Positions 4,219 to 50,597 of a DNA stretch of 53,064 nt are shown piece by piece (position 1 is the stretch's first letter; each line of letters begins with the position of its first letter). The stretch is taken from positions 1 to 53,064 of the IMG/VR virus record IMGVR_UViG_3300035205_000772. One strand, given 5' to 3'. Made by a program: the position numbers and the translations under genes. Below the pieces are notes generated by a model, which saw only the letters and a list, made by a program, of their open reading frames with translations, searched no databases and had not been told where the DNA came from. This stretch comes from a virus.

Positions 4219-4233
4219 TAAAAATATGAAAAA

Positions 4234-6057: not shown

Positions 6058-6068
6058 TTTTACCTCAC

Positions 6069-15631: not shown

Positions 15632-16918
15632 TTATCCATTAAAAGAACTATACTCCATAGATTCTGGATTTAATTTGTTTAACCAATGATACAAATCTTC
15701 AAACCTTTCTTCTAAATCTTTATTTGTTGCCAATATCTCACCATTACCTATCTTTTTAAGATTTACATGACTCTTTGATGGGTAAGACTGAACATATTCT
15801 CTAAACCTTTTATGTATTATCTCTACACCATAGAAATCAGGATTCATATAAATAGGTGTACCAGGATATGGTGTGAATAATAAACAAATCCATTTATCAG
15901 GTTTTACATCTTCTATAAATTTCTTAACTGCCTCTATAGACTTATCTGTTTCTCCTGGTAGTCCTGTAATAATATAAACTTTTGCTTTTATTCCCCATTT
16001 TTGTATAAGTTTAACAGCGTTTCTGTGCATATCAGTAGTGGCTTTTCCTGCTTTATTAACAACCTCTAATATTTCATCGTCTGCAGATTCAAATCCAATT
16101 CCAACTTCTCTACAACCTGCATAATATAATAATTCCATATATTCATCACTCACCAATACTGAACTAATAGAACACCTAAACCTAATATCCAAATCATGTA
16201 ACTTGGGAGCTAATTTTTGAAATCTTTTTTTATCAATAATAACATTATCATCTAAAAATCTAAAATGTCTACACCCATACTTTTCAATCATTAGTTCTAT
16301 TTCTTCTATAACATTTTCTGCACTTCTAAATCTTGTTTTCTGTTGTAGGTTGGCACAAAAAGCACAAGCGAAAGGACAACCTCTACTTGTCATTAATGTT
16401 GCACCAATAACTTCACTTTCGTAGTTATATCCACCCCATAAATCTGCACTTGCTGCTCTATGGTCAGGAAGTAAGTGTCTTGCTGGATGTGGGATTGTGT
16501 CTAAATCTACTATCCTATCACCTCTTTGTAATCCTTTTGGTTTCTCTGTGCATATTTTAGTTATAATACTCTCTGCCTCATCTTGAACCACACAATCAAA
16601 GTCATCCACACAATCATCTGGTAACCAAGTTGCGTGTGGGCCACCTAAAATGGTATATGCCTTATCACCATACTTCTTTTTAATATTACGAGCCACTTCT
16701 TTCATATCATCTATTTGTGGTGTAACGGCAGTAATACAGTAGATATCACCTTTTGGTGGATTATCATACGAATTGTAATCTTCTCTTAAATCCCACAACT
16801 CACATTCAAAACCATCTCTCTCTAAGACAGCGGCAATGTATAATGGACCCAAAGGTGCATATGCAAATTGTTTTGCATCCATTTTAGCATCAGGGTTTAC
16901 TATGATTACTTTTTCCAT
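15632..16918 (-). CDS. B12-binding-domain radical SAM enzyme
   Basis: A 428-residue protein with an N-terminal cobalamin-binding-like domain (residues about 1-130: APLGPLYIAAVLE, ILGGPHATWLP, VVQDEAE) and a radical SAM core with CxxxCxxC at Cys181, Cys185, Cys188 in SRGCPFACAFC. Later segments IGFESADDEIL and ITGLPGETDKSIE are typical of the class B/MiaB-like core. Members methylate unreactive carbons or rearrange substrates. I choose ATG 16918, which shares a base with the preceding stop and follows GGAGAG; a start five codons earlier would overlap the upstream gene further. The next upstream gene encodes an amidinotransferase. Substrate unknown. Confidence 0.88.
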   Translation of the reverse strand: MEKVIIVNPDAKMDAKQFAYAPLGPLYIAAVLERDGFECELWDLREDYNSYDNPPKGDIYCITAVTPQIDDMKEVARNIKKKYGDKAYTILGGPHATWLPDDCVDDFDCVVQDEAESIITKICTEKPKGLQRGDRIVDLDTIPHPARHLLPDHRAASADLWGGYNYESEVIGATLMTSRGCPFACAFCANLQQKTRFRSAENVIEEIELMIEKYGCRHFRFLDDNVIIDKKRFQKLAPKLHDLDIRFRCSISSVLVSDEYMELLYYAGCREVGIGFESADDEILEVVNKAGKATTDMHRNAVKLIQKWGIKAKVYIITGLPGETDKSIEAVKKFIEDVKPDKWICLLFTPYPGTPIYMNPDFYGVEIIHKRFREYVQSYPSKSHVNLKKIGNGEILATNKDLEERFEDLYHWLNKLNPESMEYSSFNG

Positions 16919-17937
16919 TAATTTTCTCTCCACATATCAGTAGTTACACAATGAAATGAGCCACCAAGTGTTCTCGAATGTCTTATTCGTAATGGTAAAC
17001 TATCAACATTATGCTTTTTCAATAATTTATGTAACTCTACTTGACTTTCATCTACAATAACAGTATTTTCATCAATTGATAACAAATTTAACCCAATCCA
17101 AGTAGATGCGTGGTTAAAATTACCATAATATCCAATATCTACACAAGGTGGACACCAAATCTTATCCCACGACTTTAAAATTTCAGGCATATTGTCATCA
17201 TTCACTCTTTCTGGGTTCAATAAACACAATCCTTCCCTTAAAAGTGCTATAGTTGAATCAATATGAACATAAGAATACATATTTTCAAGAACATGAACCT
17301 TATATTCATCACCTAAAAAGTTTTGTAACCATTTTGCACCAAGTTTATTACCTGTGTTCGATAATAAATATAATATGTCTTTATTACACCGTAAAATGTT
17401 AGCCGCATCAAAAACGGGTTCTACATTTGTAAGTGTTAATTTAGTTAAATCTCTTCTTTGATAATTATCATCGGTTAATCTTGGTTTTGGTGCTGATACC
17501 CACCTTGCACCATCTTCCATATACTCAATAAACTGATCTCTAAATCCAAATGTCTCAAAATATCGTGAACGTAACGTCATTGGTGATTCTATAATCGTAT
17601 CTCCAATTACTGTAACACTATCTCTCGGACAAAATGTATAATATCCATCTGAAACCCAATCAATTGTTTGAAATATTTTATTATTTTGATTCGGTTTCAT
17701 TCTACGAACTTTAATATCAAAAAAAGATTTTAAAGATTGTACAAGAATATCTAAATCTTCTTTTGTTTCTTCTATAACTTGTTCAGGATAATAACCCTCT
17801 TTTACATCATCTATATTATTTTTATCTGCATAATTAATCGCATGTAAATCTTTACCTTTAATTGGATTATTTGCATTTTCTACTGTACCAACGAATACTT
17901 CTCTTAACCTATCCCATTCGTTATTAACTCTTACCAT
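16918..17937 (-). CDS. Glycine/inosamine-type amidinotransferase
   Basis: A 339-residue member of the amidinotransferase (pentein-fold) family. The catalytic residues are visible: the FDAAN segment with Asp177, YVHIDST with His225 and Asp227, and the C-terminal GGSFHC with the nucleophile Cys330. These enzymes move an amidino group from arginine to an amine, as in creatine and streptomycin biosynthesis. Together with the carbamoyltransferase it resembles decoration steps of aminocyclitol or amino-sugar pathways. The start ATG 17937 shares a base with the previous stop and follows AAAGGA. Guanidinylation of a sugar amine is plausible; arginine deiminase-like hydrolysis is the main alternative. 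Confidence 0.88.
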   Translation of the reverse strand: MVRVNNEWDRLREVFVGTVENANNPIKGKDLHAINYADKNNIDDVKEGYYPEQVIEETKEDLDILVQSLKSFFDIKVRRMKPNQNNKIFQTIDWVSDGYYTFCPRDSVTVIGDTIIESPMTLRSRYFETFGFRDQFIEYMEDGARWVSAPKPRLTDDNYQRRDLTKLTLTNVEPVFDAANILRCNKDILYLLSNTGNKLGAKWLQNFLGDEYKVHVLENMYSYVHIDSTIALLREGLCLLNPERVNDDNMPEILKSWDKIWCPPCVDIGYYGNFNHASTWIGLNLLSIDENTVIVDESQVELHKLLKKHNVDSLPLRIRHSRTLGGSFHCVTTDMWREN

Positions 17938-19082: not shown

Positions 19083-19951
19083 AACATTTTCTTTACATTA
19101 GGTATTAATTCGTCTACTACTTGGCTGTGTGCTAACTTACCATCATGTCTTAAATCTCTAGCTTTATCCTTATTCGGTGTTGTTATTTCTATCTTTTGTA
19201 CACTTTTAATATCTAACTGTAATTCAAAATCTTGTAAATAAGACCAATGTAAAACAGGTATATCTAATGCTTTCCACATATTATTTATTGCACAAAAATT
19301 AATATAATGATCTCTATACATTTCACCATTTTCTCTCAAATATCTTGTTCTAAACCAAGTATAATCTCTATCACTAGCTACCGTATTTATATTATAATGT
19401 GTAAACTCTAAATCTGTAGTTTTTCTATCATAATTAACATTAACATGAGCAAAACTTCTTCTAAAACTTTGAGGCCATTGATAAATTATTAAATTTGGTT
19501 TTTTCTTTCCGAGTTTTGGATATATGTTTTTAATAAATAAAACAGTATTGATATAAAGAGTATCTGGTCCAACTCCCCCTTTACCCAAATTTAAAATATC
19601 TATATCTAATGCTTGACTAAGTTGATGACACCATATATCATTTTTATGTAATCCAACTCCTTCTGTAATACTACAACCCATTACTAATATATTATCTTTA
19701 TCTAAATAATCTAATTCTTTTGCTCTATAACCCCAACTATTAAAATCATATCGCAATGTTTTTTCACTATCTGCATATTCCCAATCTGAACCAAGTTCTT
19801 CTAAATTCATTTTAAAGAATTCTTCTTTATCAGTACTGTGCCATTTAAGATCCCTAATACCCACTTTATTAGTATCAATTAATAAAGGAAATTGATTCCA
19901 CTTAAAACCTTTATGATCACTATTATATAATGTTAAATTACCTCGTCCCAT
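19079..19951 (-). CDS. SGNH/GDSL-type hydrolase-like protein
   Basis: A 290-residue protein with SGNH blocks: VMGCSITEG with candidate nucleophile Ser94, NLGKGGVGPD with block II Gly around residues 121-130, and DLRHDGKLAH near the C-terminus providing an Asp/His pair. Most glycan-associated members add or remove O-acyl groups. About 85 residues precede block I and carry no recognisable domain. No signal peptide is present, so action in the cytoplasm is likely. It is linked by short overlaps to a DegT-like aminotransferase upstream and a radical SAM gene downstream. Two other SGNH-like genes occur in the island (34492-35433 and 46410-47036), with little overall similarity by eye. Confidence 0.82.
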   Translation of the reverse strand: MGRGNLTLYNSDHKGFKWNQFPLLIDTNKVGIRDLKWHSTDKEEFFKMNLEELGSDWEYADSEKTLRYDFNSWGYRAKELDYLDKDNILVMGCSITEGVGLHKNDIWCHQLSQALDIDILNLGKGGVGPDTLYINTVLFIKNIYPKLGKKKPNLIIYQWPQSFRRSFAHVNVNYDRKTTDLEFTHYNINTVASDRDYTWFRTRYLRENGEMYRDHYINFCAINNMWKALDIPVLHWSYLQDFELQLDIKSVQKIEITTPNKDKARDLRHDGKLAHSQVVDELIPNVKKML

Positions 19952-20670
19952 TATTTATTAAAAACCTCTTTATCTGATACGTCATAATAGTTTTCCCAAC
20001 TATAAACATCTTCGTTTACTTCTGGTACTGAATCCATTAATAATATTCCTCTAGCAGCATCTTCGGGTAACATATACATATGCCATCCTATCATAGCAAA
20101 ATCATCATCTCCATAATGAACATTAACATTACGACCATCATGACTTGCAAGTTTTATCCATTCATATGCTTTTTTATCGTCAGTTAATACCATTCCACCT
20201 GCACCTATTGGTATTCTCTTTTTAATATTAAAAGATACTACTTGTAAAGCATTATCACCAACATACATATCCTTTGTCCATCTACAAGCACCATCCCATA
20301 TAGTATATGGTTTTAATTGATAAATACCTTTCCATTTTAAATCCTCAAACTCTACTTTATATCCTGCATTGATAATTGTCATTGGAACTGAAACATAAGT
20401 TCTACCAGGAATTTTTACTGTTTGAGGAAAATTTCTCATCCCATAAAACTGATCCCAATAATATTTTAAACAAAGAAACAATCCACTACTTGAACTATTT
20501 ACAGCACAAGCATATTTACTTCCTGCAAATTTTGCTACTTTTTTCTCAAAAATATCTATAACATCAAATGGATCTGAAAATTCATATCCAGCATCTTTTA
20601 ATTCAGTAAGTTCTGGACGTTCTTTACTTCCTAATTTTCCATAAGGCCAAGCTAAATACTTAACTTTCAT
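19951..20670 (-). CDS. Shortened DegT/DnrJ/EryC1/StrS aminotransferase
   Basis: A 239-residue protein with the large domain of a PLP sugar aminotransferase. VNSSSSGLFLCL resembles the phosphate-binding loop, VKIPGRTYVSVPMTI the conserved substrate segment, DGACRW the Asp that contacts the pyridine nitrogen, and SFNIKKRIPIGAGG carries the PLP lysine (Lys151). The family is normally about 360-400 residues; here the C-terminal small domain is missing just after a GWHMYMLPEDAARG segment. I place the start at ATG 20670, behind AGAGGAG and overlapping the kinase gene by four bases (ATGA). It may be a degenerate or partner-dependent enzyme in amino-sugar synthesis. Confidence 0.84.
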   Translation of the reverse strand: MKVKYLAWPYGKLGSKERPELTELKDAGYEFSDPFDVIDIFEKKVAKFAGSKYACAVNSSSSGLFLCLKYYWDQFYGMRNFPQTVKIPGRTYVSVPMTIINAGYKVEFEDLKWKGIYQLKPYTIWDGACRWTKDMYVGDNALQVVSFNIKKRIPIGAGGMVLTDDKKAYEWIKLASHDGRNVNVHYGDDDFAMIGWHMYMLPEDAARGILLMDSVPEVNEDVYSWENYYDVSDKEVFNK

Positions 20671-21455
20671 AAAATCTCCTCTAATGTAACTGTTGCAACT
20701 CCATGTTTCTGTACAACTACTGTAGTACATTTCTGTGCAAACTTAATTGCTTCATATATGTTATTGGTATCTAAATAACCACGAACTAATCCTGCAATAA
20801 ATGTATCCCCTGCTCCACTTACATCCCTTACAGGAACTTCTTTTACTGGATATTCTAATCCTTTATATCTACAACCTTTACTACCTAATGTAACAATAAG
20901 TTTATCTCTAAATCCTTTATCTGATAATAACTCGTAATTCTTTTTATATTCTAACTCATTTATTTTAATATAATCTGCGTCTTTAATCCACTTACCGAGT
21001 TTCTTTTTAGTATCCACGAATACATTTTTATTGTATTTACAAATATGTTCTATATCACTTTCTTCTAAAAATCCTTTACAATAATCTGAAATAATAATTG
21101 CATCAATTTTATCTATATTACCACCCAACCCATAAGATTTAAATTTATTATTTTTTATACCTTGTAATTTTTTTATTTCTACTCTATCACAATAATCATG
21201 TTCATCAACTCTTAATACCATTTGTCCTGAACGATTATCTACATATCGTTTTTTCACAATTGTATTTTCATTTGTAACTGTATAGATAGTCATTTCTAAT
21301 GATTCTACATTGTTTACAACATTTTTTGCCATACCACCATTTGATTCTTTATGTGTTGGTTTAAAAACTGGTATAGGTGCTTCTGGACTTATTCTTTCTA
21401 TGTCTCCATAAATAAAAATATCATTACAACTATCTCCTATAACTACTACATTCAT
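20667..21455 (-). CDS. PfkB-family sugar kinase, heptose-7-phosphate kinase-like
   Basis: A 262-residue kinase resembling the N-terminal domain of HldE/RfaE. The diagnostic RISPEAPIPVF is at residues 21-31, NGGMAKNVVNN stands in place of the GGAAN motif, KINELEY follows, and the catalytic DVSGAGDTF has Asp217. HldE domain 1 phosphorylates D-glycero-D-manno-heptose 7-phosphate on the way to NDP-heptose. It is shorter than the usual domain (about 315), mainly through loss between residues 55 and 90. The adenylyltransferase half of HldE is absent here. The gene overlaps its neighbours by four bases on each side. A heptose or other sugar-phosphate kinase role is likely; the exact sugar is uncertain. 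Confidence 0.87.
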   Translation of the reverse strand: MNVVVIGDSCNDIFIYGDIERISPEAPIPVFKPTHKESNGGMAKNVVNNVESLEMTIYTVTNENTIVKKRYVDNRSGQMVLRVDEHDYCDRVEIKKLQGIKNNKFKSYGLGGNIDKIDAIIISDYCKGFLEESDIEHICKYNKNVFVDTKKKLGKWIKDADYIKINELEYKKNYELLSDKGFRDKLIVTLGSKGCRYKGLEYPVKEVPVRDVSGAGDTFIAGLVRGYLDTNNIYEAIKFAQKCTTVVVQKHGVATVTLEEIL

Positions 21456-22603
21456 GATTCAATAACCTTTATATAAGCTTGTTTATCTTCTTCATTAAAT
21501 TTATCTTGTGGAAAAATTCCAGGTATAATTTTATAATCTTGTGCAAATGTACTAAAAGTTGAATCTCCAAATGCAATTAAAAAATAAGAATTAGCTAATG
21601 AAAACAAATCCACTACATTTTTTAAAACATATTGGTGGAATCCTTCAGGTGGATGTAAAGTTTTAGTACGTCTAAAATGTCTTCTCATCAATGGCGATTC
21701 GTTCATAATTGTATCAAAATCAATAATGTCATAATTATCATAAAATATTTTCAAATTCTTTTTATTAACATCACTACTAATGTAAAATTTTTGATTGGGA
21801 TTTATTTTTAACATCTCATCCATTATATACATATATACACTATTATTCACAGCAGTATATCCCACAGGATCTCCTGAGTACTGTAAAAGTAACTTTCCAT
21901 CTTTCATAGGGCTTTTTAATTGTCTTAATCTCTCCTTTACCACTTCAGAGTCATCTTTAAGAAAGTAAAGATTATCTGGTGGCTTTCCTGCAATTCCTAC
22001 ATTTTCTAAATTTAACAAATCTGATTCGTCAACTTCCCAATCTACAGGTTCTCCATCTCTAAATCCTTTAACATCATCTTCATCTCTAAAAACTCCCGTT
22101 GGCCACCTTCGTATATGTAATCCTACAGTTTTTTCTGTATATTTTTTGATAAACATTTCAAGAAACTGATCTTGAAGTGTTATTAACTGAGATGGTCTAG
22201 ATAATAATGCACCTGTATCTTCATCAAAATCACTAAACTCATCAATAAAATGAAATCCAAAATTAGAATAATAATCTTTACTTATATTTAATTTATAATT
22301 CTTTTTATCCGACATTTGTTTTAATTTTTTATAAGTAATCGGCGTAGTACCTTTATAAAATTTAGAACTAACATAATTATATTTTTCATCTCTTAACTCA
22401 TCATGATGTACTCCTTTTGTATATGGAAGTTCTATATATTGTAATTCTGGCCAATAATTTTCTTCTAATAATATATTAAATTTAAAATCATTAGCTTTAC
22501 ATAAACCATATGCTATTTCCCAATGGAAAAGTCTATTGCACAATCCCGTATCTTCAGGACTCATAGAACCACCCCAGGGTTCTCTCCATCTTAAATTATT
22601 CAT
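21452..22603 (-). CDS. Fucosyltransferase-like GT-B protein (NodZ/O-FucT type)
   Basis: A 383-residue protein. VGLHIRRWPTG, with His163, Arg165 and Arg166, matches the HxRR GDP-fucose-binding motif shared by alpha-1,6- and protein O-fucosyltransferases. FYISSD near residue 280 and the late FGDSTFSTFAQDY segment match the other conserved nucleotide-binding motifs. An N-terminal NRLFHWEIAYGL stretch fits the start of the first Rossmann-like domain. The product would transfer fucose or a related 6-deoxy sugar in the cytoplasm. No membrane segment is present. The gene is translationally coupled to both the kinase and the oxygenase genes. Donor and acceptor are unknown. Confidence 0.83.
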   Translation of the reverse strand: MNNLRWREPWGGSMSPEDTGLCNRLFHWEIAYGLCKANDFKFNILLEENYWPELQYIELPYTKGVHHDELRDEKYNYVSSKFYKGTTPITYKKLKQMSDKKNYKLNISKDYYSNFGFHFIDEFSDFDEDTGALLSRPSQLITLQDQFLEMFIKKYTEKTVGLHIRRWPTGVFRDEDDVKGFRDGEPVDWEVDESDLLNLENVGIAGKPPDNLYFLKDDSEVVKERLRQLKSPMKDGKLLLQYSGDPVGYTAVNNSVYMYIMDEMLKINPNQKFYISSDVNKKNLKIFYDNYDIIDFDTIMNESPLMRRHFRRTKTLHPPEGFHQYVLKNVVDLFSLANSYFLIAFGDSTFSTFAQDYKIIPGIFPQDKFNEEDKQAYIKVIES

Positions 22604-23256
22604 ACTATCACCGAAATATCTTTTCTATTTTTCCAAGTTGCAGGCAATTCTTCATCATTTTTAACACAGAATCCGATAAGATTATTTCTATCTTCTTTTG
22701 CAAAAGTATATGTTGGATTTACCCAATGTGGTATTCTTAATGAATGGTTAATTAACACCAATCTATTTGGATCAGGAAAAATAGAAAGTATTTCTCCACC
22801 ACTTGAAACTTGTAGTTGGCCGCCCCAATCATATTTCCAAAGTTCTTTTGTTAAATATAATATGTACCCAGCCTCTCCCATATAATCATCATAATGACAT
22901 CGTATGTAATCCTTACCATTATTTTTAATCTTTGTTGCTTGATGTCTAAATTGCCCTAAGGCATCTCCATTAACCTCTTTTATTATAGGTTTTATATATT
23001 CATCAAATACCCCTAATACATAATCATCAGATGCTACATCATGACTCGACCAAAAATGTGCCAAATAATCTTCGGGTGAATCAGGAAATCGTTTATCATT
23101 GGAAGTCTCCCACAATTTATATCTACCTTCTCTGATTTGATCAATTTCTACAAAATCTTTTGCAGAATTAAATATTTCAACCATTTCACTATAAACCTCT
23201 AATGGTAAGAAATTATCTATTATTACGTAACCATTTTTTTTGTACTCACTTAACAT
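22600..23256 (-). CDS. 2-oxoglutarate/Fe(II)-dependent oxygenase
   Basis: A 218-residue dioxygenase with a full set of ligands: HYD with His121 and Asp123, the distal His177 in RIPHWV, and Arg190 in KEDRNNLIGF for 2-oxoglutarate. The YILYLTKELW and DWGGQLQV strands before the distal His are typical of the prolyl 4-hydroxylase-like group common in T4-like marine phages. It would hydroxylate a peptide, sugar or lipid with 2-oxoglutarate and oxygen. It is coupled to the fucosyltransferase-like gene (four-base overlap) and to an SDR gene (11-base overlap), which favours a glycan-related substrate, but a protein substrate cannot be excluded. Confidence 0.88.
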   Translation of the reverse strand: MLSEYKKNGYVIIDNFLPLEVYSEMVEIFNSAKDFVEIDQIREGRYKLWETSNDKRFPDSPEDYLAHFWSSHDVASDDYVLGVFDEYIKPIIKEVNGDALGQFRHQATKIKNNGKDYIRCHYDDYMGEAGYILYLTKELWKYDWGGQLQVSSGGEILSIFPDPNRLVLINHSLRIPHWVNPTYTFAKEDRNNLIGFCVKNDEELPATWKNRKDISVIV

Positions 23257-24154
23257 AATTTTCTTTATACCATTTAATTGTTTTTTCTAATCCCTCTTTC
23301 AACGTATACTTACATTCCCAACCAAGTTCATTCATTATTTTAGTTGAGTCAATTTTACGAACTGGTATCATTGGTTTCATACCACCTACGTATTCTATTG
23401 GTGCATCATAGTTTTCAATTTCCATACACATTGATAATACTTCATTTACAGAATGAGCTGTATTACTTCCAATGTTCCATATAGAATAATCATCTACTTT
23501 TCTAACAATAAGTTCTAAAGCAGTAACCACATCATCTATATGAATCAAATCTCTTATTTCAGAACCATCTCCCCAAACTTTAATTGGATTGTGTTTATCT
23601 ACTACTTTTCTAATTGTAGCAGGTGTTACATGACATTTATCAAAATCCCATTTATCTCCAGGTCCAAATATATTCGCAGGTCTAACAACTATACACTGCA
23701 TAGTTTTATCTAAACGATTAGAATACATATCACATAATACTTCTGCATATCTTTTCATCCAACCAACAGGAAAATATGCAGGATATGGTTCATCAAAAAT
23801 ATAGTCAGTTTCTTTTACTGATCTCTCATTTGATGGTGGATAAATTGTAGAACTACTGATAAAAATGAACTTCTTAACACCACTATGATAAGAAGCATCC
23901 ATTACATTAGCATTCATAGCAACATTTGGTGTAACGTGAACCAATGGTGATTTCTCTGTATCAAAAGCGTTTGATGTATTTGCTGCACAATGAACAATTG
24001 TATCATAACCTTGTATCAAATCTTTACAAACATCAAGTGATGTTAAATCTCCATCTTTAGATGATATTCCATCTACTTCATAATTATTTTCTTTTAATAG
24101 TCTATAAAGATTAGAACCTATTAAACCTGTTACTCCTGTTATTAGTATTTTCAT
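23246..24154 (-). CDS. Extended SDR (NDP-sugar epimerase-like) with Val at the catalytic Tyr position
   Basis: A 302-residue extended short-chain dehydrogenase. GVTGLIGSN at about 7-15 is the NAD-binding GxxGxxG, VHCAANTSN and FIFISSSTIYPP follow, and VVRPANIFGPGD and VWGDGSEIRDLIHIDDV are typical of NDP-sugar epimerases and reductases. In the YxxxK active site the Lys is Lys134 (GWMKRYAE), but the Tyr position is Val130. DNA at this codon reads GTT with no sign of a frame problem. Either the protein uses another acid, binds without full catalysis, or is a specialised variant. It overlaps the oxygenase gene by 11 bases and the next SDR gene by four. Confidence 0.88.
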   Translation of the reverse strand: MKILITGVTGLIGSNLYRLLKENNYEVDGISSKDGDLTSLDVCKDLIQGYDTIVHCAANTSNAFDTEKSPLVHVTPNVAMNANVMDASYHSGVKKFIFISSSTIYPPSNERSVKETDYIFDEPYPAYFPVGWMKRYAEVLCDMYSNRLDKTMQCIVVRPANIFGPGDKWDFDKCHVTPATIRKVVDKHNPIKVWGDGSEIRDLIHIDDVVTALELIVRKVDDYSIWNIGSNTAHSVNEVLSMCMEIENYDAPIEYVGGMKPMIPVRKIDSTKIMNELGWECKYTLKEGLEKTIKWYKENYVK

Positions 24155-25116
24155 AATGCTGCCCCATATGTTAAAGGAAATCCATTTCTAAAATGACTTG
24201 TATCATTATTTATTATTATTTGATAAGCCATTATTAATTCTTTTATACCATCGTGTAAAGTATATTTAGGTAGCCAACCTGTGCTTTCTACTTTTTCATT
24301 ACTTACAATGTAATCTCTTTTGTCAGGATCCTCATAATAATCAGAATAAGTAATAGCAAAATCTGAAATATATTTTTTAATCATTTCAGCTAATTGTTGT
24401 TTATTGATATTAGCGTTTGATAATCCTACATTGAATATCTCACCTCTATGTATATCACGAAGAACAACCATCCATTCAAATACTGAAGCTACATCTCTGA
24501 TATGAATATAGTTACGAACTGCTTTTCTTTCAAAGATAGTAATATATTTATCCGTCAATGCTTTATAAACAAATTCATTAACTAATAAATCTAATCTCAT
24601 TCTTGGTGATACACCAAACACCGTAGCAAATCTAAAGATAATTGCATTACCATTTTGTAATAATATATCTTCTGCATTACATTTGGTTATTCCATAATGA
24701 CTAATTGGTTGTAATTTTTGATCTTCCGTACATATACCACTTGAACGAGTTCCATAACCACTATTTGTATTTGGAAAAATAATAGTTTGTTCTTTAGATG
24801 TATTAGTTATTAAATCATATATCTGATTATAATTTACCTCTTCTGCTAATTGTTTATCTTTTTCACAAGCAGGAAAACCAACTATCGCAGCCAATGGTAT
24901 TATCACATCTGCTTTCTGTACATACTCATTTAATTTTTTATAATCTCTAACATCTCCATATACAAATTTAAAATTAGATTTATAACATAAATCACTCAAT
25001 GTTAACTGATTATACATCAAATTATCATATACGGTTACATCATAACCTTTATCTAATAACAAAGGAACAATTACTGAACCAAGATATCCTGCACCACCTG
25101 TAACTAATATATTCAA
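24151..25116 (-). CDS. NAD-dependent epimerase/dehydratase (extended SDR)
   Basis: A 321-residue extended SDR with intact motifs: TGGAGYLGS at 6-14, VIIPLAAIVG, FPNTNSGYG with Ser119, the active site YGITK with Tyr141 and Lys145, and FRFATVFG and RNYIHIRDVA downstream. This pattern is typical of UDP-glucose 4-epimerase-like and 4,6-dehydratase-like enzymes; the precise reaction is not determined. It is the only one of the three SDRs in the window with a complete catalytic triad. The gene overlaps its neighbours by four bases on both sides, upstream being the ParB/PLP fusion. Confidence 0.9.
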   Translation of the reverse strand: MNILVTGGAGYLGSVIVPLLLDKGYDVTVYDNLMYNQLTLSDLCYKSNFKFVYGDVRDYKKLNEYVQKADVIIPLAAIVGFPACEKDKQLAEEVNYNQIYDLITNTSKEQTIIFPNTNSGYGTRSSGICTEDQKLQPISHYGITKCNAEDILLQNGNAIIFRFATVFGVSPRMRLDLLVNEFVYKALTDKYITIFERKAVRNYIHIRDVASVFEWMVVLRDIHRGEIFNVGLSNANINKQQLAEMIKKYISDFAITYSDYYEDPDKRDYIVSNEKVESTGWLPKYTLHDGIKELIMAYQIIINNDTSHFRNGFPLTYGAAL

Positions 25117-36050: not shown

Positions 36051-36062
36051 CATATATAAATA
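36051..36062. promoter_or_regulatory. Promoter-like motif CATATATAAATA (copy C)
   Basis: The plus strand reads CATATATAAATA at 36051-36062, with TATAAATA at 36055-36062; the minus strand reads TATTTATATATG. It sits at the upstream edge of the structured leader, about where a promoter for the RmlC-like transcript is expected, and it repeats the motif of the two other gaps (4206-4218, 7978-7991). The direction is ambiguous, as in the other copies. Confidence 0.45.
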
Positions 36063-36082
36063 TCATACTCATTAATAAAACA

Positions 36083-40487: not shown

Positions 40488-41745
40488 AAACAAAATACTC
40501 TAATTCAGGAATATAATTACTTATATGTTGTTTTCTATTCATATCCAATTTTTTTGTATAAATTTTAAATCTAGCAATAGCATCATATTGTTCTGTTTCA
40601 GGTAACTCATCTTTTAAAGTTACTAAATTACTTTTCAAAATACCTAACCATTGTTCTTCACCTACATCCCACTTAACATCTTTTTTACTATCAAGAAATT
40701 TATTTACTCTCTCTACAGCAATATCTTTTAAATCATCAGGTAATATTCTGCAATCATACCAAGAAGGATATGTTACCCAATTAGCAAATGGTATTCTCCA
40801 AAAACCTAAATCACCTAATGAATATACCCACTCTAACAACTTATCATAGTTTAAAACATTTAATACTTGAAATGTTGCATGAATCTGTAAGTCCATACTA
40901 AGATCTTTTTTCCATTTAGAAACTTTCTTTATATTCTTTTCTAACTTTGCCCACTTAGATGGGTATCTAATATAATCATCTACTTCTTTATAACCATCTA
41001 TACTCACACCAAGATAAATGTGTCTAAATTCTTCCCACAAATCAAATAACTCATCTTTTACTGTTGTTAAATTTGTTGTATAAAATAATACTATATTTTG
41101 ACTTATATCAAATTTAATACATTGTTTCAAAAAATCAATATGTTCTTGTATAATTAATGGTTCACCACCAAGAAAATTAACTTGCTTTAAATGCGTTAAA
41201 TTAGTTGCAAAAAATTCATCACTTAAAAAATCTTCATTTACAGATACGGTAGATTCAGGTATATTTAATTCTTGATTTGGATAAAGTAATTTAGATTCTT
41301 TTTCCCATATATGTGAATTATCTACATTACACATTCTACATATTAAATTACACTTATTACCAAGAGTAAAATCTAAAAAAGTAACATATGGATCATCAAT
41401 GTAACCATCTGAATTTACAGACTCTAGCATTATATCTTTATAAAACCCACTTGCTAAAGTATTATTCCAAATAGTTCTATAACTCTCTGCTCCATTATCT
41501 TCTGTTTGCCAACATCTAATACAACCAGGATCTTGTTTATTTGCTAATATATTTTTTCTAATTCTCATATGAACATCACTCGCAAAAGCTTTTTTCATAC
41601 TAAAATCTTCGTCTGTAACTAATATTGGTTTCCCATTCTCATCTTTTGGTATTTCATAATTATTACAACATACCCTAACTCGACCTCTTTGATCAAAACT
41701 TAAAGAAGTGAAAAGATGTGAACAAAAATATTTTAAATCTTCCAT
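40477..41745 (-). CDS. Radical SAM protein with N-terminal twitch-like cysteines (copy 1)
   Basis: A 422-residue protein. Before the core stand extra cysteines, Cys8, the pair Cys26-Cys27 in VRVCCNN, and Cys75/Cys78 in CIRCW, which look like ligands of an auxiliary iron-sulfur cluster placed at the N-terminus. The radical SAM motif is Cys132, Cys136, Cys139 in GNKCNLICRMC. FLGGEPL and VSIDGYKEVDDYIRYPSKW follow. The layout equals that of the genes at 44993, 47744 and 49068. Relatives are frequent in marine bacteria and viruses and usually unnamed beyond the twitch label. It ends inside the DESYD paralogue 5 gene. Oxidation or rearrangement of a sugar or peptide is possible. Confidence 0.86.
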   Translation of the reverse strand: MEDLKYFCSHLFTSLSFDQRGRVRVCCNNYEIPKDENGKPILVTDEDFSMKKAFASDVHMRIRKNILANKQDPGCIRCWQTEDNGAESYRTIWNNTLASGFYKDIMLESVNSDGYIDDPYVTFLDFTLGNKCNLICRMCNVDNSHIWEKESKLLYPNQELNIPESTVSVNEDFLSDEFFATNLTHLKQVNFLGGEPLIIQEHIDFLKQCIKFDISQNIVLFYTTNLTTVKDELFDLWEEFRHIYLGVSIDGYKEVDDYIRYPSKWAKLEKNIKKVSKWKKDLSMDLQIHATFQVLNVLNYDKLLEWVYSLGDLGFWRIPFANWVTYPSWYDCRILPDDLKDIAVERVNKFLDSKKDVKWDVGEEQWLGILKSNLVTLKDELPETEQYDAIARFKIYTKKLDMNRKQHISNYIPELEYFVYES

Positions 41746-43976
41746 TAATGTTTTCCTGTCATAAAAGTTCTTTTTAAATTAAGTTTATATTTTTCTATAT
41801 CTAATGCATCAAGATAATTTGGTACTCCATATTTTTTCCGAAAATAATCTTCGTCTTCATACTTATCATTCATATTTCCAACATCGTGATACTTATCATG
41901 AAAACTAATATCATAAAAAGTTACCATAGTACCATCCTTATTAATTTTTAAATGATCACCTATATGTAAAGGTTCTTCATCTTCATGAAATCTTCTCGCT
42001 ATTTGTTTTTTTCTTTTTTTCCACATTTCTTTATCACTATGTTTTAATTCTATAGGTAATTGTATATGAATAGTTCTTTTTGCTCTTTTATCTATTGTCA
42101 ATTTATTATCTATTGATAATCTATAACTACCATCCATTTCTGATTGAAATTTAAATTTACTAATCATTCTAGCACCATCTATATTTCGTTCACTATAATC
42201 TTCATCAAACTCCACTTCAATATCAAATGGTCCGGCTATCTGATACATTAGCCAACACCAAACTCTTATTTCGTTTCTTGTTTGTATTTTTATAGTATCT
42301 TCAATACTAACTGAAGCATCGTATTCTCCTGTATCAGCTTTATTAGCAAATTCTAAATATGGTACATTATAATTTAAGTTTCTAATCTTAAATTGTTCTC
42401 TATTTCCATGCCAATTATGTCTCTGTTGCCAAAATGTTCCATTTGCTCTTTGATCCCATTCTTGATACTGTTCTTTATTAAACATTGATTTAGGATCTTT
42501 AAATTTTATGTGTTTAATATTCTCTCTTACAGTCCAAAATCCCGAATAGTAAATTTTCCATATTTCTAAAAACATATGACATAACTTCACTCTTAAAAAT
42601 CTATTAACATAAGTATTTTTTACATCATTACTAACCCAATCATAAAATATATTTCCTAATGGTGAAATATTAAATACGTCTCTATATTGATCAAGTGCTG
42701 TACCTGGAGTTACTCCTGCAGGAAACTGATTTGCTGCTACTACGGGTATATAATGTTTATTCTTATATAAAAAATGTAAACTCATTATCCAATCAATATG
42801 ATTTTCTTTTGGATAGCCAGAAATCCAATTAGCATCCATACGTATTCCATGTCTCCAACAAGCTTTCCACAATTGTTCGATTCCCTCAACTGTTTGTCTT
42901 TTCTCTATAACCTCAAGTATTTTAGGCGTTCCACTTTCCACTCCAATAGATAACCATTTAAATCCTGCTTTAGCAGCCTTTCTCATCAATTTACTATCCA
43001 TTTCTTTATGAGTTCTAGCATATCCACCAAGACTTAATTCTTTCAATTTTGGATCTTTTACAACCTCTTCTGCTAATTCATTTACTAATATTTTAAATTG
43101 TGGCATTGAACCATTAATAAGAGAATCAACAAATGAAAAATGAGTAATTCCATATTTTCTTGTTTGTTCTAAAATTTCTTCTTTAATCTTTCTACCTTTC
43201 TTAAATCTAAAAATTCTTGTCTCTGAACAAAATGTGCATTTATAGGTACAACCTCTTGAACCTTGTAATGGTAAATGTGCATGTCCTGAATAGTGATGTT
43301 TAGCGTAAATTTCCAAATCTACACCATCCCAAATAGGCGTTGGTATTATATCTAACTCTTTTTGTGGTATTCTCATACCTGTAAATTTATGTCTATCTTT
43401 AGAAGTTGAACCAAATGTCCATATTCCTTGTACAGTTTCATAACTAATACCTTTCTCATAACAATCTACCAAATCATTAATAACAATTTCTCCTTCATTA
43501 TCACATGATAATTTTATCCAATACCTATCGGGTTCACCATCGGGTGATGATATACAAAGTCCACCTTTAGGTGCATTCCAACAATATGGTCCACCATAAA
43601 AAATATGAAGTTTTGGATTAGCCTTATATAATCTTTCAGCAAAATAATCAGTAACAACTATATTAGAAAAATATGTTGTAAAAGTAACTATATCATAATC
43701 TTTAAGTTCATCTATCAAACTATCCCAATATTCTTTATAAGTAGGAAGAATTTTATCATTGAATGAATGGTCATTAGTCCAAAAGAAGTGACCCGTAGGT
43801 GCCCATAATTCTTCTCTAGCTTCTTCATCTACATATTCAGCAGATAGTAAGTTAATATGAAATTGTTTCGCAACCCTATCTCTTGTTTTTAAAGCACCAG
43901 CTAACAAACCAAGACTAAGTGGTGGTGTCTCTAAAGACCAAGCTGGCAACATACAAACTGCTATCTTAGGTTGCAT
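41745..43976 (-). CDS. B12-binding-domain radical SAM protein with long C-terminal extension
   Basis: A 743-residue protein, the largest in the glycan island. Residues 1-200 look like a cobalamin-binding-type domain (PPLSLGLLAGALK, IVTFTTYFSNIV, HIFYGGPYCW, DNEGEIVINDLV), though the usual DxHxxG cobalamin ligand is not evident. The radical SAM core has Cys243, Cys247 and Cys250 in SRGCTYKCTFC, then SIGVESGTPKIL and WISGYPKENH. The final 200 residues hold beta-rich sequence (YDASVSIEDTIKIQT, FDIEVEFDEDYSE, YRLSIDNKLTID) suggestive of an additional jelly-roll-like domain. It overlaps the neighbouring radical SAM gene by 11 bases. Substrate unknown. Confidence 0.85.
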   Translation of the reverse strand: MQPKIAVCMLPAWSLETPPLSLGLLAGALKTRDRVAKQFHINLLSAEYVDEEAREELWAPTGHFFWTNDHSFNDKILPTYKEYWDSLIDELKDYDIVTFTTYFSNIVVTDYFAERLYKANPKLHIFYGGPYCWNAPKGGLCISSPDGEPDRYWIKLSCDNEGEIVINDLVDCYEKGISYETVQGIWTFGSTSKDRHKFTGMRIPQKELDIIPTPIWDGVDLEIYAKHHYSGHAHLPLQGSRGCTYKCTFCSETRIFRFKKGRKIKEEILEQTRKYGITHFSFVDSLINGSMPQFKILVNELAEEVVKDPKLKELSLGGYARTHKEMDSKLMRKAAKAGFKWLSIGVESGTPKILEVIEKRQTVEGIEQLWKACWRHGIRMDANWISGYPKENHIDWIMSLHFLYKNKHYIPVVAANQFPAGVTPGTALDQYRDVFNISPLGNIFYDWVSNDVKNTYVNRFLRVKLCHMFLEIWKIYYSGFWTVRENIKHIKFKDPKSMFNKEQYQEWDQRANGTFWQQRHNWHGNREQFKIRNLNYNVPYLEFANKADTGEYDASVSIEDTIKIQTRNEIRVWCWLMYQIAGPFDIEVEFDEDYSERNIDGARMISKFKFQSEMDGSYRLSIDNKLTIDKRAKRTIHIQLPIELKHSDKEMWKKRKKQIARRFHEDEEPLHIGDHLKINKDGTMVTFYDISFHDKYHDVGNMNDKYEDEDYFRKKYGVPNYLDALDIEKYKLNLKRTFMTGKH

Positions 43977-45000
43977 TTATATTTTCCTTTTTAATAATCT
44001 TATAATCTCCTACATCTTTATAAACTTTTGGATTTATTTTTGGTATTATTACATCTGTACCACAAGTACAATGATTCTTTGGACAAATAACAGGATTTCC
44101 TAAATTTTCTAAATCTTCTTGTTTCCATGTGTTTATATTAGTAAATATATCACTAACACCACAACTACCAGCGCTAACATCACCCCTTGTATTTATAAAA
44201 ATAGCATCATTTAAAAAACAAGTCCATCCTTGAAAGTTAGTTAACTTCTCTGCTGATAATCTATTAGAGTTTACAGGTCTAATTTTACCATCACTCCAAA
44301 CCTCTAAACTATAAGCAGGTTTAAACTTTCGTCTTTCATTTACTTTTCCCCATTTTCTCATATAACCATCCGTCTTTTTGAAAAAATCATTTTTCCATTC
44401 TTCGTCATAATCCCACATTTCTGCATCTACTGATAAATCTTTAAGTAGTGGGACCCATTCTACAACACAATTATCCATGTCGCTATACATCTTTCTACCA
44501 ATATCAATACACTCTTGAAACCTACTTTCTTCCATCATAATTCTCAATGCTAAATAATTTACTCTATCTTGTAAAAACTTAGCATTCTTAATATACTTAT
44601 TGTATTTAATATATTCAATATGATAACTAGCTACAACATCTTGAAAGTAATAATAATTATCTAACCACCAACTCAAAGGATTGCTTAAATTTGTATTTAT
44701 AGCTAATAATGGTTTATCACATTTTTTATGTAAAAATTTTGCTATTGGTATTAATGATTTCCAATATGTTGGTTCTCCTCCCGAAAAAAAGAATTTAAAA
44801 GACTCATAACCAAATGATTGATATTTTGATATCAAAGAATCTAAAAACTCTATGTACTTATCTGTATCTTTATTTAAATTGTTACCACCCCAATTACCCT
44901 CATTACAATAAGAACATCTAAAATTACACCAATCATTTACTTGCCAAGTTACATTTATATACTTATTTTCACCTGGTAATATTTTTAATAACTCAGTCAT
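43966..45000 (-). CDS. Radical SAM protein with C-terminal auxiliary-cluster cysteines
   Basis: A 344-residue protein. The radical SAM motif lies very near the N-terminus: Cys25, Cys29, Cys32 in DWCNFRCSYC. FFFSGGEPTYW follows at about residue 70. The C-terminal region has WTCFLND, GSCGVSD and the cluster-like ICPKNHCTCGTD, which could hold one or two auxiliary iron-sulfur clusters, although the order differs from classical SPASM. No N-terminal twitch cysteines are present, unlike its neighbours. It overlaps the upstream gene by eight bases and the B12-type gene by 11, so three radical SAM proteins are translated in series here. Confidence 0.85.
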   Translation of the reverse strand: MTELLKILPGENKYINVTWQVNDWCNFRCSYCNEGNWGGNNLNKDTDKYIEFLDSLISKYQSFGYESFKFFFSGGEPTYWKSLIPIAKFLHKKCDKPLLAINTNLSNPLSWWLDNYYYFQDVVASYHIEYIKYNKYIKNAKFLQDRVNYLALRIMMEESRFQECIDIGRKMYSDMDNCVVEWVPLLKDLSVDAEMWDYDEEWKNDFFKKTDGYMRKWGKVNERRKFKPAYSLEVWSDGKIRPVNSNRLSAEKLTNFQGWTCFLNDAIFINTRGDVSAGSCGVSDIFTNINTWKQEDLENLGNPVICPKNHCTCGTDVIIPKINPKVYKDVGDYKIIKKENINAT

Positions 45001-46444: not shown

Positions 46445-47036
46445 TATTTAATGATTCGTCTTTTAATACTTTATTAAGTTGTTTAGCAAATGATTCGTGA
46501 ACTTGAGGTGCCATATGTAATAATCTAATATCTTTTGTAAAATTAAAATCTAATAACTTCGAAAATTCTAAAAGTTCTGGTTTTATATTTATTCCTTGTT
46601 CAAATATATGAGGATAAAAATCAAAATGTATATTGTTCTTGTTTAAAATATTCACTTCATGGCCCGATCCGTCATCTGAAATATAATCTGATTCTTTAAA
46701 AGAATATAAATGAATAATTTTTTTATCTGAATAATTTTTTTGTAAAAATCTATCAAACCATTGTAATAAAGCAATTCCTTTTAAAAAAATATAATCATTC
46801 GAATCTTTTTTTATATCCATTTCTCTGTGTAAGGTGGACCAAGCAAAGAAACAAATATCAAAATCTTTATCATAATCTAAAAAATTCATTATTGTGCTCC
46901 AAGGACCAATACCACCTACACCTCGTGAATCAAGTATTAAATCATTTTCTTGACAAACATAATCTAACCAGGTCAATGGTTCTATATGAACAGATTGTTC
47001 CACAAAACTATCTCCAAATGTAACTAACTTATTCAT
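46410..47036 (-). CDS. Small SGNH-like hydrolase
   Basis: A 208-residue protein starting MNKLVTFGDSFVEQ, where GDSF is SGNH block I with candidate nucleophile Ser10. SRGVGGIGPWSTIMNFL matches block II, FFAWSTLHRE the block III region, and LLHMAPQVHESFAKQL supplies a late His. The Asp of the usual DxxH pair is not evident, so activity is less certain than for the two other SGNH genes. I choose ATG 47036 behind GAGG; the frame could extend four codons. It is coupled to a DUF115-like gene upstream and a radical SAM gene downstream. A sugar O-acyl hydrolase or transferase is plausible. Confidence 0.78.
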   Translation of the reverse strand: MNKLVTFGDSFVEQSVHIEPLTWLDYVCQENDLILDSRGVGGIGPWSTIMNFLDYDKDFDICFFAWSTLHREMDIKKDSNDYIFLKGIALLQWFDRFLQKNYSDKKIIHLYSFKESDYISDDGSGHEVNILNKNNIHFDFYPHIFEQGINIKPELLEFSKLLDFNFTKDIRLLHMAPQVHESFAKQLNKVLKDESLNNGDVVEFNLEY

Positions 47037-47751
47037 AAACATCCTCAAACATTCCTTTTAATCCCTTTGGATTAATAGATATTATTTTTACATCTTTAAA
47101 ATTTATATCAACAAACTCTTTAAATTCTTTCCAAAATGAAATAGTTCCTTCTGTTTTATTTTTTATATCATGATCCCATCGTTTATTTGGTTCTAAATAA
47201 GAAGCACCATATCCACAATCACATCCAACCAAATATATTTCTTTAACTCCTGTATAAAGTAAAAATTGTAATGCAGGAAAAACAATTCTTCTATCATATA
47301 ATGGATTAGTATTTATATCAATTTGAAATGCTGATACTCCTCTTTCCGTATGACATTCGAAAGAAATTGCACCTAACATTTGAATTTCTTCATTTGTAAA
47401 AAGTTCATCATTAGCTTTATCTACCCACGTTGGTTTATTTTGTATATCATACACTATTTTATTTAATAGAAAAATTTCCATTTCATCTTTTCTTTTATCC
47501 AACTGATTAAATATTGGTGATTTAATTTCTAAATCATGATGTGGATGATTCCAACTTTCTCTCCTTACATTTTGTCCACCAAAAAAATAATCTAATTTTA
47601 AATCTTCTTTATAAATTACAGAATTAACCCCTACTCTAACCCAATCCTTAGAAGAATCAAAGTTATATAATTCTAAGGTTGGACCACTTGCAAATAAAAT
47701 AGCAGTTTTATCCTTGTGTTTATTCTTATAAAATATAAATTCTCTATTCAT
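47029..47751 (-). CDS. DUF115/MptE-like protein, possible sialyl-type transferase relative
   Basis: A 240-residue protein with TAILFASGPTLELYNF at about 15-30 (the SGPS/T-L nucleotide-binding start of DUF115 and GT42-like folds), VRVGVNSVIY, LDYFFGGQNV, and later FPALQFLLYTGVKEIYLVGCDCGYG, which matches the second conserved strand-turn of this group. Related proteins include flagellin nonulosonate transferases (Maf) and bacterial sialyltransferases; others are pterin diphosphokinases. In this context transfer of an acidic sugar from a CMP-activated donor is the more likely role, but it remains inference. No membrane segment. It overlaps both neighbouring genes by eight bases. Confidence 0.76.
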   Translation of the reverse strand: MNREFIFYKNKHKDKTAILFASGPTLELYNFDSSKDWVRVGVNSVIYKEDLKLDYFFGGQNVRRESWNHPHHDLEIKSPIFNQLDKRKDEMEIFLLNKIVYDIQNKPTWVDKANDELFTNEEIQMLGAISFECHTERGVSAFQIDINTNPLYDRRIVFPALQFLLYTGVKEIYLVGCDCGYGASYLEPNKRWDHDIKNKTEGTISFWKEFKEFVDINFKDVKIISINPKGLKGMFEDVYE

Positions 47752-48979: not shown

Positions 48980-49084
48980 TTATTTGTATATAAAAGGATC
49001 TCTTTTTTTAAGTTCTTTAATTTTTTTACGATATCTTATTTCTAATTTTATTTTAGTAATCAATCGTTTAATTCGTTTTATCAT
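48980..49084 (-). CDS. 34-residue basic protein ending RDPFIYK
   Basis: A very short frame from ATG 49084 to TAA at 48980-48982, fully between two radical SAM genes: it overlaps the end of the upstream one by 17 bases, and its stop directly precedes the ATG of the next. The product is one basic helix (IKRIKRLITKIKLEIRYRK) with a KKRDPFIYK end. I recall similar tiny basic proteins with an RDPFIY end from marine T4-like phages. A strong AAGGAG site five bases before the start supports translation. Function unknown. Confidence 0.78.
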   Translation of the reverse strand: MIKRIKRLITKIKLEIRYRKKIKELKKRDPFIYK

Positions 49085-50597
49085 TTTTTCTCCTTCTCTC
49101 TAATAATCTCATTCTTTTTTCAGCTAACCTAGAACTTCTAGCAGTATTAATTATTTCACTCTTGCAAGAATTAAAAAACTCTGTGTATTCGGGAAAAGAT
49201 TTTAAAAAATTTGTTCCCCTTCTATTATCGTGTTCCTTAAAAAAATTATAAAAATCACTTCTTCCTTTCTTAATATATTCCTCAACGGTTGGATATGGTC
49301 TATGTTCTATCTCTGAACTTTTAAAATAATCTACAACCCTTCTAAATTTTTCAACTTCTATAGTTCTAAATTTTGTATTGTCCTCATCATCTTGATTGTC
49401 AATCATAAACTTTAAATGATCATCCATATAATGTGTAAACTCTTCTTTAGGTAAAATATTCATATCATAATGTGGCGGTTCTTTTAAATATGGTGTATCT
49501 ATTTGAATTCTCTGTAAAGGTATAGGTTGATTAACATTTCCTTTTTCTCTAGCTGCTTTAGTATTATATTTTTCTCTCCACACTAATATTTGTTCTAATA
49601 AAGAATCAAAGTTAGAAACACATAAGTTATTAAATGTTATCATTAAAGATAATTTTGAATTATCAATTTCAGTTAAATACTTATTAAAATTTCTTTCAAA
49701 TAAATCTAAATCTAAACCATACCTCATATATTCAGCTTTAGGTTTATCCCAGCTATCTATAGAAGTAAATAACTTGAACTCTCTAACTTTCTTTTCTTCT
49801 ATAATTGGTTTTAACTTCTCTACAAATTTATCAAAAAGTTTTGGATTTGCACCAAGATTAGAATTTATATTCAATTCAAGATTTGGCATAGGGTTTTTAT
49901 TAATCTCATCTAATAATCTATAAGTACTACCATGAATTGTTGGTTCACCACCTGTAATTCTCAATATATTTAATGTCTTAGAAACTTCTGGCCACCATTT
50001 CCACCAAGCCTTTACATATGGATTATCTTCATCATTTTTATATAACCTATCTTCAAACCACTCAACATCATATTTGCCTGTATAATTTTTGTAATAAGAA
50101 CCATATTCTTTAATTTCATCATAAAATCTTGAACTATATCTTGGATGACAATAACCACATTTAAAATTACATTGATTACCAAAAGAAAGTTCGATATATT
50201 CAGGATTAACATTCATATCCCAGGGATTATTTATAATATCATCTAATCTACTCTTATCTCCCTCATATATAGAAAGAGTTCTTTGTTTCCTATCACTTAT
50301 ATAATCTTCACCTAATGCTTCTACATTCCAACAATAAGTACATCCTTCAGGTTTCTTACCCTCTAACATCTGCTTTCTTTCAAACTTCTTCATACTTGTA
50401 TTATGTAATGCTGAAGGATTGTTTTTTAACTCTTCTAAAGAAATTGCGTGTGGTTGTGGGTGATAACAACTATGAGTTTCACCTAAATGTAGATAGATAG
50501 TAACATGGTGCCATTTAGCAAGACAAAATGTTGGTGAAGTCTTTGCCTCTATTTGAGGTAAAACTTTCTTTATTCTTTCATGTTCGTAATTACTCAT
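49068..50597 (-). CDS. Radical SAM protein with N-terminal twitch-like cysteines (copy 4)
   Basis: A 509-residue protein, the longest of the four. FCLAKWHHVTIYLHLGETHSC at about 24-44, GCTYCWNVEALGED at 85-98 and the radical SAM motif Cys143, Cys147, Cys150 in GNQCNFKCGYC. RITGGEPTIHG follows. The double Cys of the other copies is replaced by HSCYHPQPH, so one possible cluster ligand is a His. The C-terminus is helical and basic (RLAEKRMRLLERRRK). ATG 50597 shares one base with the stop of the galactosyltransferase-like gene. Substrate unknown; the four copies may act on successive positions. Confidence 0.85.
   Translation of the reverse strand: MSNYEHERIKKVLPQIEAKTSPTFCLAKWHHVTIYLHLGETHSCYHPQPHAISLEELKNNPSALHNTSMKKFERKQMLEGKKPEGCTYCWNVEALGEDYISDRKQRTLSIYEGDKSRLDDIINNPWDMNVNPEYIELSFGNQCNFKCGYCHPRYSSRFYDEIKEYGSYYKNYTGKYDVEWFEDRLYKNDEDNPYVKAWWKWWPEVSKTLNILRITGGEPTIHGSTYRLLDEINKNPMPNLELNINSNLGANPKLFDKFVEKLKPIIEEKKVREFKLFTSIDSWDKPKAEYMRYGLDLDLFERNFNKYLTEIDNSKLSLMITFNNLCVSNFDSLLEQILVWREKYNTKAAREKGNVNQPIPLQRIQIDTPYLKEPPHYDMNILPKEEFTHYMDDHLKFMIDNQDDEDNTKFRTIEVEKFRRVVDYFKSSEIEHRPYPTVEEYIKKGRSDFYNFFKEHDNRRGTNFLKSFPEYTEFFNSCKSEIINTARSSRLAEKRMRLLERRRKNDKTN
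49090..49095 (-). promoter_or_regulatory. Strong ribosome binding site of the 34-residue gene
   Basis: AAGGAG on the minus strand, five A residues before ATG 49084. It lies inside the last codons of the upstream radical SAM gene and decides in favour of the tiny frame being translated. Confidence 0.7.

Follow-up and report, generated by a model that had tools for sequence, protein, structure and literature searches.

The window analysed here is the whole of a 53,064-base IMG/VR virus record (IMGVR_UViG_3300035205_000772), with all of its main genes on the minus strand, and it holds an island in which nine genes for radical S-adenosylmethionine (SAM) enzymes stand among predicted glycan genes. 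T4-type prohead protease, portal and terminase genes lie at 1.8-7.6 kb, and by the matches of its portal (PF07230, 263 bits) and terminase (PF03237, 45 bits) the source of the window is a T4-like phage. A preliminary description of this DNA had listed nine proteins with a CxxxCxxC motif, and all nine open reading frames (ORFs) are on the minus strand where that description had placed them, with the motif intact in each (genes are named below by their first coordinate; see Table 1). A search of the whole record with PF04055 returned exactly these nine places (E 2e-28 to 1e-5). Six of the nine proteins pass the Pfam gathering score; 43966, 47744 and 49068 fall below it, the latter two being supported by the NCBIfam twitch-domain radical SAM model NF033640 and the first by motif conservation. 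The NF033640 cut-off of 170 bits is exceeded by 40477, 44993, 47744 and 49068 (297 to about 385 bits). Ratios of nonsynonymous to synonymous substitution (dN/dS) against relatives are mostly 0.04-0.25, comparable to those of the portal and terminase genes, while 26476 evolves faster (0.2-0.4 against its own orthologues); this purifying selection indicates that the nine genes are functional.

Three of the enzymes had been credited with B12-binding-like N-termini, which is firm for 15632 (PF02310, 45 bits against a cut-off of 32.1) and probable for 26476, whose PF02310 match is below cut-off. The third, 41745, has no match to PF02310, and its B12 domain is suggested by profile similarity, its family profile (A3) matching OxsB (6e-12), TokK, CysS and AprD4. 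Genes of the island are also tightly packed: 91% of adjacent same-strand pairs overlap, compared with 31% among the structural genes of the window and 46% in the rest of a 216-kb relative. An overlap with the upstream neighbour is present in eight of the nine radical SAM genes, and 47744 alone is set off from it, by a gap of 88 nt. The preliminary description spoke of coupling to glycan genes; in several of these overlaps, the partner is not a glycan gene but itself encodes a radical SAM enzyme. The T4 late promoter TATAAATA was not enriched (14 against 18 expected).

Six core genes and three accessory genes

Six of the nine genes (49068, 47744, 44993, 43966, 41745 and 40477) form a core, which comprises four classes of twitch-domain enzyme (T1-T4), a short class of about 330 aa (S) and a B12-type class (B). 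The N-terminus of the T2 protein matches SPASM (PF13186), and its radical SAM and N-terminal cysteines are invariant across nine sequences; the N-terminal profile matches the C-terminal region of BtrN, to which the twitch profile gives 5e-4. In class S (alignment A2), CxxxCxxC, SGGEP and five C-terminal cysteines are invariant among eight sequences with identity down to 38%. Two other genes lie within the core of the window, namely a DUF115/MptE-like gene (47029), which has no counterpart in G002, G003 or G015, and an SGNH-like gene (46410), for which Pfam gave no match.

Near relatives separate this core from the remaining three genes. The 216-kb record (G001), with 98% terminase identity, has nine radical SAM matches, as do G002 and G003 (terminase 80-86%), whereas G015 (72%) has twelve and G004 (71%) has three genes and is missing most of the core block. 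G015 keeps the core block and has no orthologue of 17937 or 26476 (for the latter, 21% identity only), and its 15632 orthologue, 89% identical, lies about 10 kb from the block beside a UDP-sugar dehydrogenase gene; across four relatives, orthologues of 15632 are 87-92% identical. With two of the three absent from G015 and the third set apart there, the nine genes are not one unit; six constitute a block and three are accessory. Neither this comparison nor the lack of most of the block in G004 supports the proposal that all nine serve a single pathway. The patchy, independent occurrence that would have spoken against any common pathway is nevertheless not what we find for six of the nine genes, as their block recurs with its order largely kept.

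In both G004 and G015 the island is flanked by large structural-looking genes and by lysozyme and terminase genes, a position that may correspond to that of the variable cluster of host-recognition genes in pelagimyophages (PMC7029224). Iron-sulphur assembly was considered as a common theme of these phages and rejected, with PF01521 found in one of 15 records (G025) and in none of the near relatives of the window. We also noted that two ORFs of G003 (34840-36144) match the terminase gene, a possible frameshift or insertion.

Recurrence of the core cassette

Pattern-limited scans of IMG/VR gave confirmed stretches for class S (n=242) and class B (n=281), and a set of 68 non-redundant viral loci shows the core cassette recurring, with members gained in some and lost in others. 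The four twitch classes T1-T4 are ancient paralogues, and orthologues of each class are found in separate phages; most clades of the tree are well supported, and some long-branch rows are of unsure placement. In phages unrelated to one another, these classes are arrayed with S and B in the order T1-T2-[T3]-S-[B]-[T4]. Among 40 non-redundant S loci, at least two twitch genes are present in 98% (and in 33 of the 33 that span at least 15 kb) and class B in 45%, while adjacent core pairs are on the same strand in 100% of cases and overlap in 88%. For the 68 non-redundant loci of at least 12 kb, T1 comes first in 37 of the 43 arrays that hold T1 and S, T3 is associated with T4 (p 4e-7) and S with twitch arrays (p 7e-6); an association of S with B was not significant. 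As the loci were retrieved by core queries, high co-presence is partly expected, and a cassette is better supported by gene order, by overlap and by the way in which non-query families associate.

Of 25 records examined, 16 gave a T4-type portal gene. In eight distant phages the portals are only 24-29% identical to that of the window, yet T1 is 52-54% identical (6/8), S 40-44% (6/7) and T2 36-50% (6/8), with G036 and G038 carrying distant versions only. This difference suggests that the core has been exchanged horizontally or is under unusual constraint. The same comparison bears on the idea that the island is a gathering of unrelated auxiliary genes from different sources, brought together in a hypervariable host-recognition region and sharing no product. 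Host-recognition regions of pelagimyophages do change by gaining radical SAM cassettes (PMC7029224), and the behaviour of the three accessory genes in G015, along with the faster evolution of 26476, fits such a history. We nonetheless consider it unlikely for the island as a whole, given that six of the nine genes recur jointly across this portal divergence, in largely fixed order and with overlapping ends.

Glycan genes of the island

The other genes of the island (Table 1) include several with predicted roles in sugar metabolism. The product of 16918 aligns over its full length with StrB1 of streptomycin biosynthesis, the closest solved amidinotransferase (164/335 identical, 49%), and keeps the aligned motifs FDAAN, H-[IV]-D-S-T and FHC with their conserved Asp, His and Cys. 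It can be placed in the StrB1 family on this basis, in which an aminocyclitol phosphate would be the expected substrate. The gene adjoins the accessory gene 17937, whose product matches SkfB, PqqE and cytosylglucuronate decarboxylase, and a short DegT/StrS-type aminotransferase gene and a PfkB kinase gene are nearby, the latter with a match to 4e84 (E 4e-12 over residues 3-52). Across loci, the amidinotransferase and short DegT genes co-occur (Fisher p 2.3e-8) at a distance of one to five genes. The third accessory protein, 26476, scores 254 bits with the KedN5 model NF033712, under its cut-off of 700.

Proteins of the DESYD family (Table 1) are found in 82% of the loci of at least 15 kb with class S. 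The GT7-type glycosyltransferase gene (50597) overlaps T1 by 1 nt. The putative fucosyltransferase-like protein 21452 has no family match in Pfam or PHROGs. Among other features, the MORN-repeat gene (30780-31400) occurs patchily in relatives, and the split thiamine pyrophosphate enzyme (33381-34504) consists of two overlapping genes that are highly conserved in near relatives (81-98%). Outside the island, a 1097-aa protein (8525-11818) begins with a CTP_transf_like nucleotidyltransferase region and bears, towards its C-terminus, a KLDG motif reminiscent of a nucleic-acid ligase/nucleotidyltransferase; it may be a fusion.

Table 1. Genes of the window, with the core cassette first, accessory radical SAM genes next and other features after them.
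Feature	Coordinates	Strand	Basis or remark
Core class T1, twitch-domain radical SAM, 509 aa	49068-50597	-	NF033640 309 bits; own tree clade
Core class T2, twitch-domain radical SAM, 411 aa	47744-48979	-	NF033640 384 bits
Core class T3, twitch-domain radical SAM, 483 aa	44993-46444	-	NF033640 297 bits; orthologous clade across phages
Core class S, short radical SAM, 344 aa, C-terminal conserved Cys	43966-45000	-	Motif conservation
Core class B, B12-type radical SAM, ~740 aa	41745-43976	-	Radical SAM PF04055
Core class T4, twitch-domain radical SAM, 422 aa	40477-41745	-	NF033640 315 bits; orthologous clade
Accessory B12-binding radical SAM, 433 aa	15632-16933	-	PF02310 and PF04055 over cut-off
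Accessory radical SAM, MoaA/SkfB/PqqE-like, 381 aa	17937-19082	-	PF04055 67 bits
Accessory B12-type radical SAM, KedN5-like, 652 aa	26476-28434	-	NF033712
DUF115/MptE-like protein, lineage-specific insertion within core	47029-47751	-	Sub-threshold PF01973
SGNH-like (GDSL) protein, 212 aa	46410-47048	-	GDS motif by eye; orthologue in G015
Amidinotransferase, StrB1 (inosamine-phosphate) type	16918-17937	-	1bwd E 4.8e-111
Short DegT/StrS-type aminotransferase	19951-20730	-	PF01041
PfkB sugar kinase, heptose-7-phosphate-kinase-like N-terminus	20667-21455	-	PF00294
NolO-type carbamoyltransferase at island edge	13737-15221	-	PF02543/PF16861; phrog_1601
Putative fucosyltransferase-like protein	21452-22603	-	HxRR motif by eye
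2-Oxoglutarate-Fe(II) oxygenase (22600); two short-chain dehydrogenase/reductase (SDR) epimerases (23246, 24151)	within 22600-26489	-	Pfam
Protein with ParB-like and pyridoxal phosphate-enzyme-like stretches (25113)	within 22600-26489	-	By eye
UDP-glucose/GDP-mannose dehydrogenase family	28424-29671	-	PF03721, PF00984
Two DESYD-family proteins (29668, 31381)	within 29668-32481	-	MORN-repeat protein (30780) between
Nucleoside diphosphate (NDP)-sugar genes: SDR epimerase (32474), dTDP-sugar isomerase (35430)	within 32474-35948	-	Pfam
Split E1/transketolase-type thiamine pyrophosphate enzyme (33381, 33911)	within 32474-35948	-	Pfam; 33381 just under PF02779 cut-off
SGNH-like protein (34492)	within 32474-35948	-	By eye
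Three tandem DESYD-family proteins (36083, 37360, 38907), putative GT-B glycosyltransferases	36083-40493	-	
GT7-type glycosyltransferase, LamG-like C-terminus	50597-52009	-	Over cut-off for PF02709 and PF13733, slightly under for PF13385
DESYD-family protein, truncated by contig end	52006-53064	-	
Prohead protease (1820), portal (4234), terminase large subunit (6069)	1820-7646	-	T4-like head genes

Product of the island and comparison with known systems

Taken together, the region is very probably a modular glycan-tailoring island of a T4-like phage, built of exchangeable sub-cassettes. One of these is the ordered, mostly overlapping radical SAM set, which in most phages adjoins putative GT-B glycosyltransferases of the DESYD family, and the other is the StrB1-like amidinotransferase joined to the short DegT aminotransferase. 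The glycan reading follows from the neighbouring genes, which encode SDR epimerases, a UDP-sugar dehydrogenase, a dTDP-sugar isomerase, a carbamoyltransferase, a GT7-type glycosyltransferase, a PfkB kinase and a DegT aminotransferase, and on balance we favour the prediction that the radical SAM enzymes act on the island's sugars. In such a scheme the NDP-sugar genes would make precursors and the radical SAM enzymes would carry out C-H chemistry on them, with SAM, reductant and cobalamin supplied by the host during infection. The twitch enzymes might catalyse dehydrogenation, epimerisation or deoxygenation by analogy with BtrN or AprD4, and the B12 enzymes C-methylation or rearrangement. Oxidation, then DegT transamination and then amidino transfer could yield a guanidino-sugar. 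Streptidine and related aminocyclitols are built by this sequence of oxidation, transamination and amidination, and it is because of this parallel that we propose a guanidino-sugar as the product of the amidino cassette, a proposal with about equal weight for and against it. The glycosyltransferases may then attach the finished sugars to the envelope of the host, where they would block superinfection, or to the virion.

Several observations weigh against this glycan reading. Over all 68 loci of at least 12 kb, the co-presence of S and DESYD is not significant (p 0.2), and the identity of DESYD proteins as glycosyltransferases comes from an AlphaFold model (predicted local distance difference test, pLDDT, 75) whose top PDB folds are GT-B enzymes at weak values (best E 1e-3, template modelling (TM) score about 0.3), a sequence search of solved structures having returned nothing significant. 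The structure model of T2 (pLDDT 79.5) resembles radical SAM folds of all kinds, including viperin, anSME and EpeE, with TM below 0.5, and so does not single out sugars. Substrate assignments for all of the enzymes discussed here are predictions from sequence. Finally, in a single scan of genome contigs, T2 relatives were found in 26 loci, mostly of Bdellovibrionota, Elusimicrobia and Flavobacteriales; Bdellovibrionota and similar metagenome-assembled genomes (MAGs) have twitch genes in tandem, in some cases together with S, and the Bdellovibrionota arrays lack obvious glycan genes, while elsewhere T2 is lone, often beside housekeeping genes. The core could thus have a different substrate, and the bacterial context gives no clear pointer to glycans.

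The preliminary description had named modified sugars and a modified peptide as examples of a product, and of these the sugar is favoured. Twitch/SPASM and B12 enzymes could in principle act on a peptide or protein of the phage or of its host, as in the synthesis of ribosomally synthesised and post-translationally modified peptides, and there is sub-cut-off similarity to models for PapB, anaerobic sulfatase maturase and rSAM_ocin_1, with anSME, sactisynthase and EpeE among the fold matches of T2. Sugar genes surround the core, however, and class B also matches AprD4 and OxsB. A modified peptide is moreover less likely because the island has almost no intergenic room for a precursor: overlap is the rule among its genes, and no convincing precursor gene was seen in the two larger gaps that were checked, of 88 and 134 nt, although one could lie at a distance. 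The single stop-free stretch in the 134-nt gap (35949-36082) was judged to be chance. Overall, we regard peptide or protein modification as improbable.

Radical SAM enzymes and glycosyltransferases also take part in known phage base modifications, and two twitch proteins have weak QueE-like PHROG matches, which would fit hypermodification of bases in the phage genome or in tRNA. We rejected hypermodification of DNA, as no PF00303-type thymidylate synthase/hydroxymethylase gene was found in the close relatives G001 (216 kb) and G015. Neither NDP-sugar biosynthesis nor amidino chemistry is known to belong to base-hypermodification pathways, and we hold such a role, for DNA or RNA, to be very unlikely. 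Within the preferred glycan reading, a more specific and tentative suggestion is that T1-T2-S-B-T4 is a horizontally exchanged assembly line, largely confined to uncultured phages with a small number of bacterial lineages besides, for heavily C-H-modified sugars of a kind not known in cellular glycans. Dehydrogenated, deoxygenated, C-methylated and guanidinylated sugars would then alter the infected-cell surface or the virion.

Phage genomes rich in radical SAM genes are already known as such, and the load of nine is not exceptional or undescribed, as had been supposed. The Campylobacter phages CP220 and CPt10 encode 11 and 12 radical SAM proteins, five of which are grouped with an amidinotransferase in a cluster that can be exchanged (PMC2853527), the marine T4-like genome TARA_ERS488813_N000010 has 12 radical SAM genes (PMC5332604), and the host-recognition regions of pelagimyophages differ by radical SAM cassettes (PMC7029224). 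CP220 and CPt10 resemble the window in being distantly T4-like and in having many clustered, block-exchanged radical SAM genes with amidinotransferase and NDP-sugar-transferase-fold proteins nearby. However, the 41-kb cluster region of CP220 has no T1-T4 or B profile match and one weak S match (29.5 bits), so that by these profiles its genes fall outside the core families, and its amidinotransferase is only 31% identical. By description, TARA_ERS488813_N000010 and the pelagimyophages share with the window a marine T4-like genome with up to 12 radical SAM genes and a variable region with lipopolysaccharide-type genes and radical SAM cassettes, but TARA_ERS488813_N000010 carries an Fe-S A-type carrier gene, whereas no near relative of the window gave a PF01521 match. 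Synechococcus phage S-SCSM2R (PQ898602) has glycosyltransferases, a short DegT gene, one SkfB-like radical SAM gene, a 2-oxoglutarate oxygenase and an amidinotransferase 45% identical to that of the window, but lacks a twitch array and has two radical SAM matches genome-wide. Aminocyclitol antibiotic pathways offer the 49% match to StrB1, StrS/DegT aminotransferases and similarity of the twitch proteins to BtrN and of B to AprD4 among others; they differ in that no cyclitol synthase was recognised here and the radical SAM similarity is remote.

Within the open-access literature and the collections searched, what appears to be new is the defined cassette, with its classes and order, and the link between amidinotransferase and DegT genes. 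A search of 50,697 deposited phage records gave no match to S or DESYD, and for T1 and T2 it gave matches at only 20-27% identity. Scattered reports of radical SAM-rich phages can thereby be tied to a cassette of defined make-up and followed through metagenomes, and small constructs taken from the ordered gene classes and from the amidinotransferase-DegT pair could be used to test the question. If the glycan reading is true, widespread uncultured T4-like phages devote tens of kb to radical sugar chemistry, which would expand known viral glycan chemistry by an enzyme set without characterised close relatives.

Some of the loci collected here carry still larger arrays. IMG/VR records with 14, 17 and 21 radical SAM matches were found, and the counts of G034 (the 170-kb record of L280, with 21) and G038 (the 151-kb record of L339, with 17) exceed those of the published genomes considered. 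Tandem twitch arrays of up to eight genes occur in Bdellovibrionota MAG contigs (L199, L196, L197, L202 and L204), and an Elusimicrobia contig (L203) has about 14 proteins with the radical SAM motif in 21 kb. A contig labelled as Rhodobacteraceae MAG NAT686 (L207) is phage-like, with many genes 62-76% identical to those of the G025 and G024 arrays, and a tryptophan-halogenase-family protein (L186, 6438-7694) adjoins the radical SAM array of G018.

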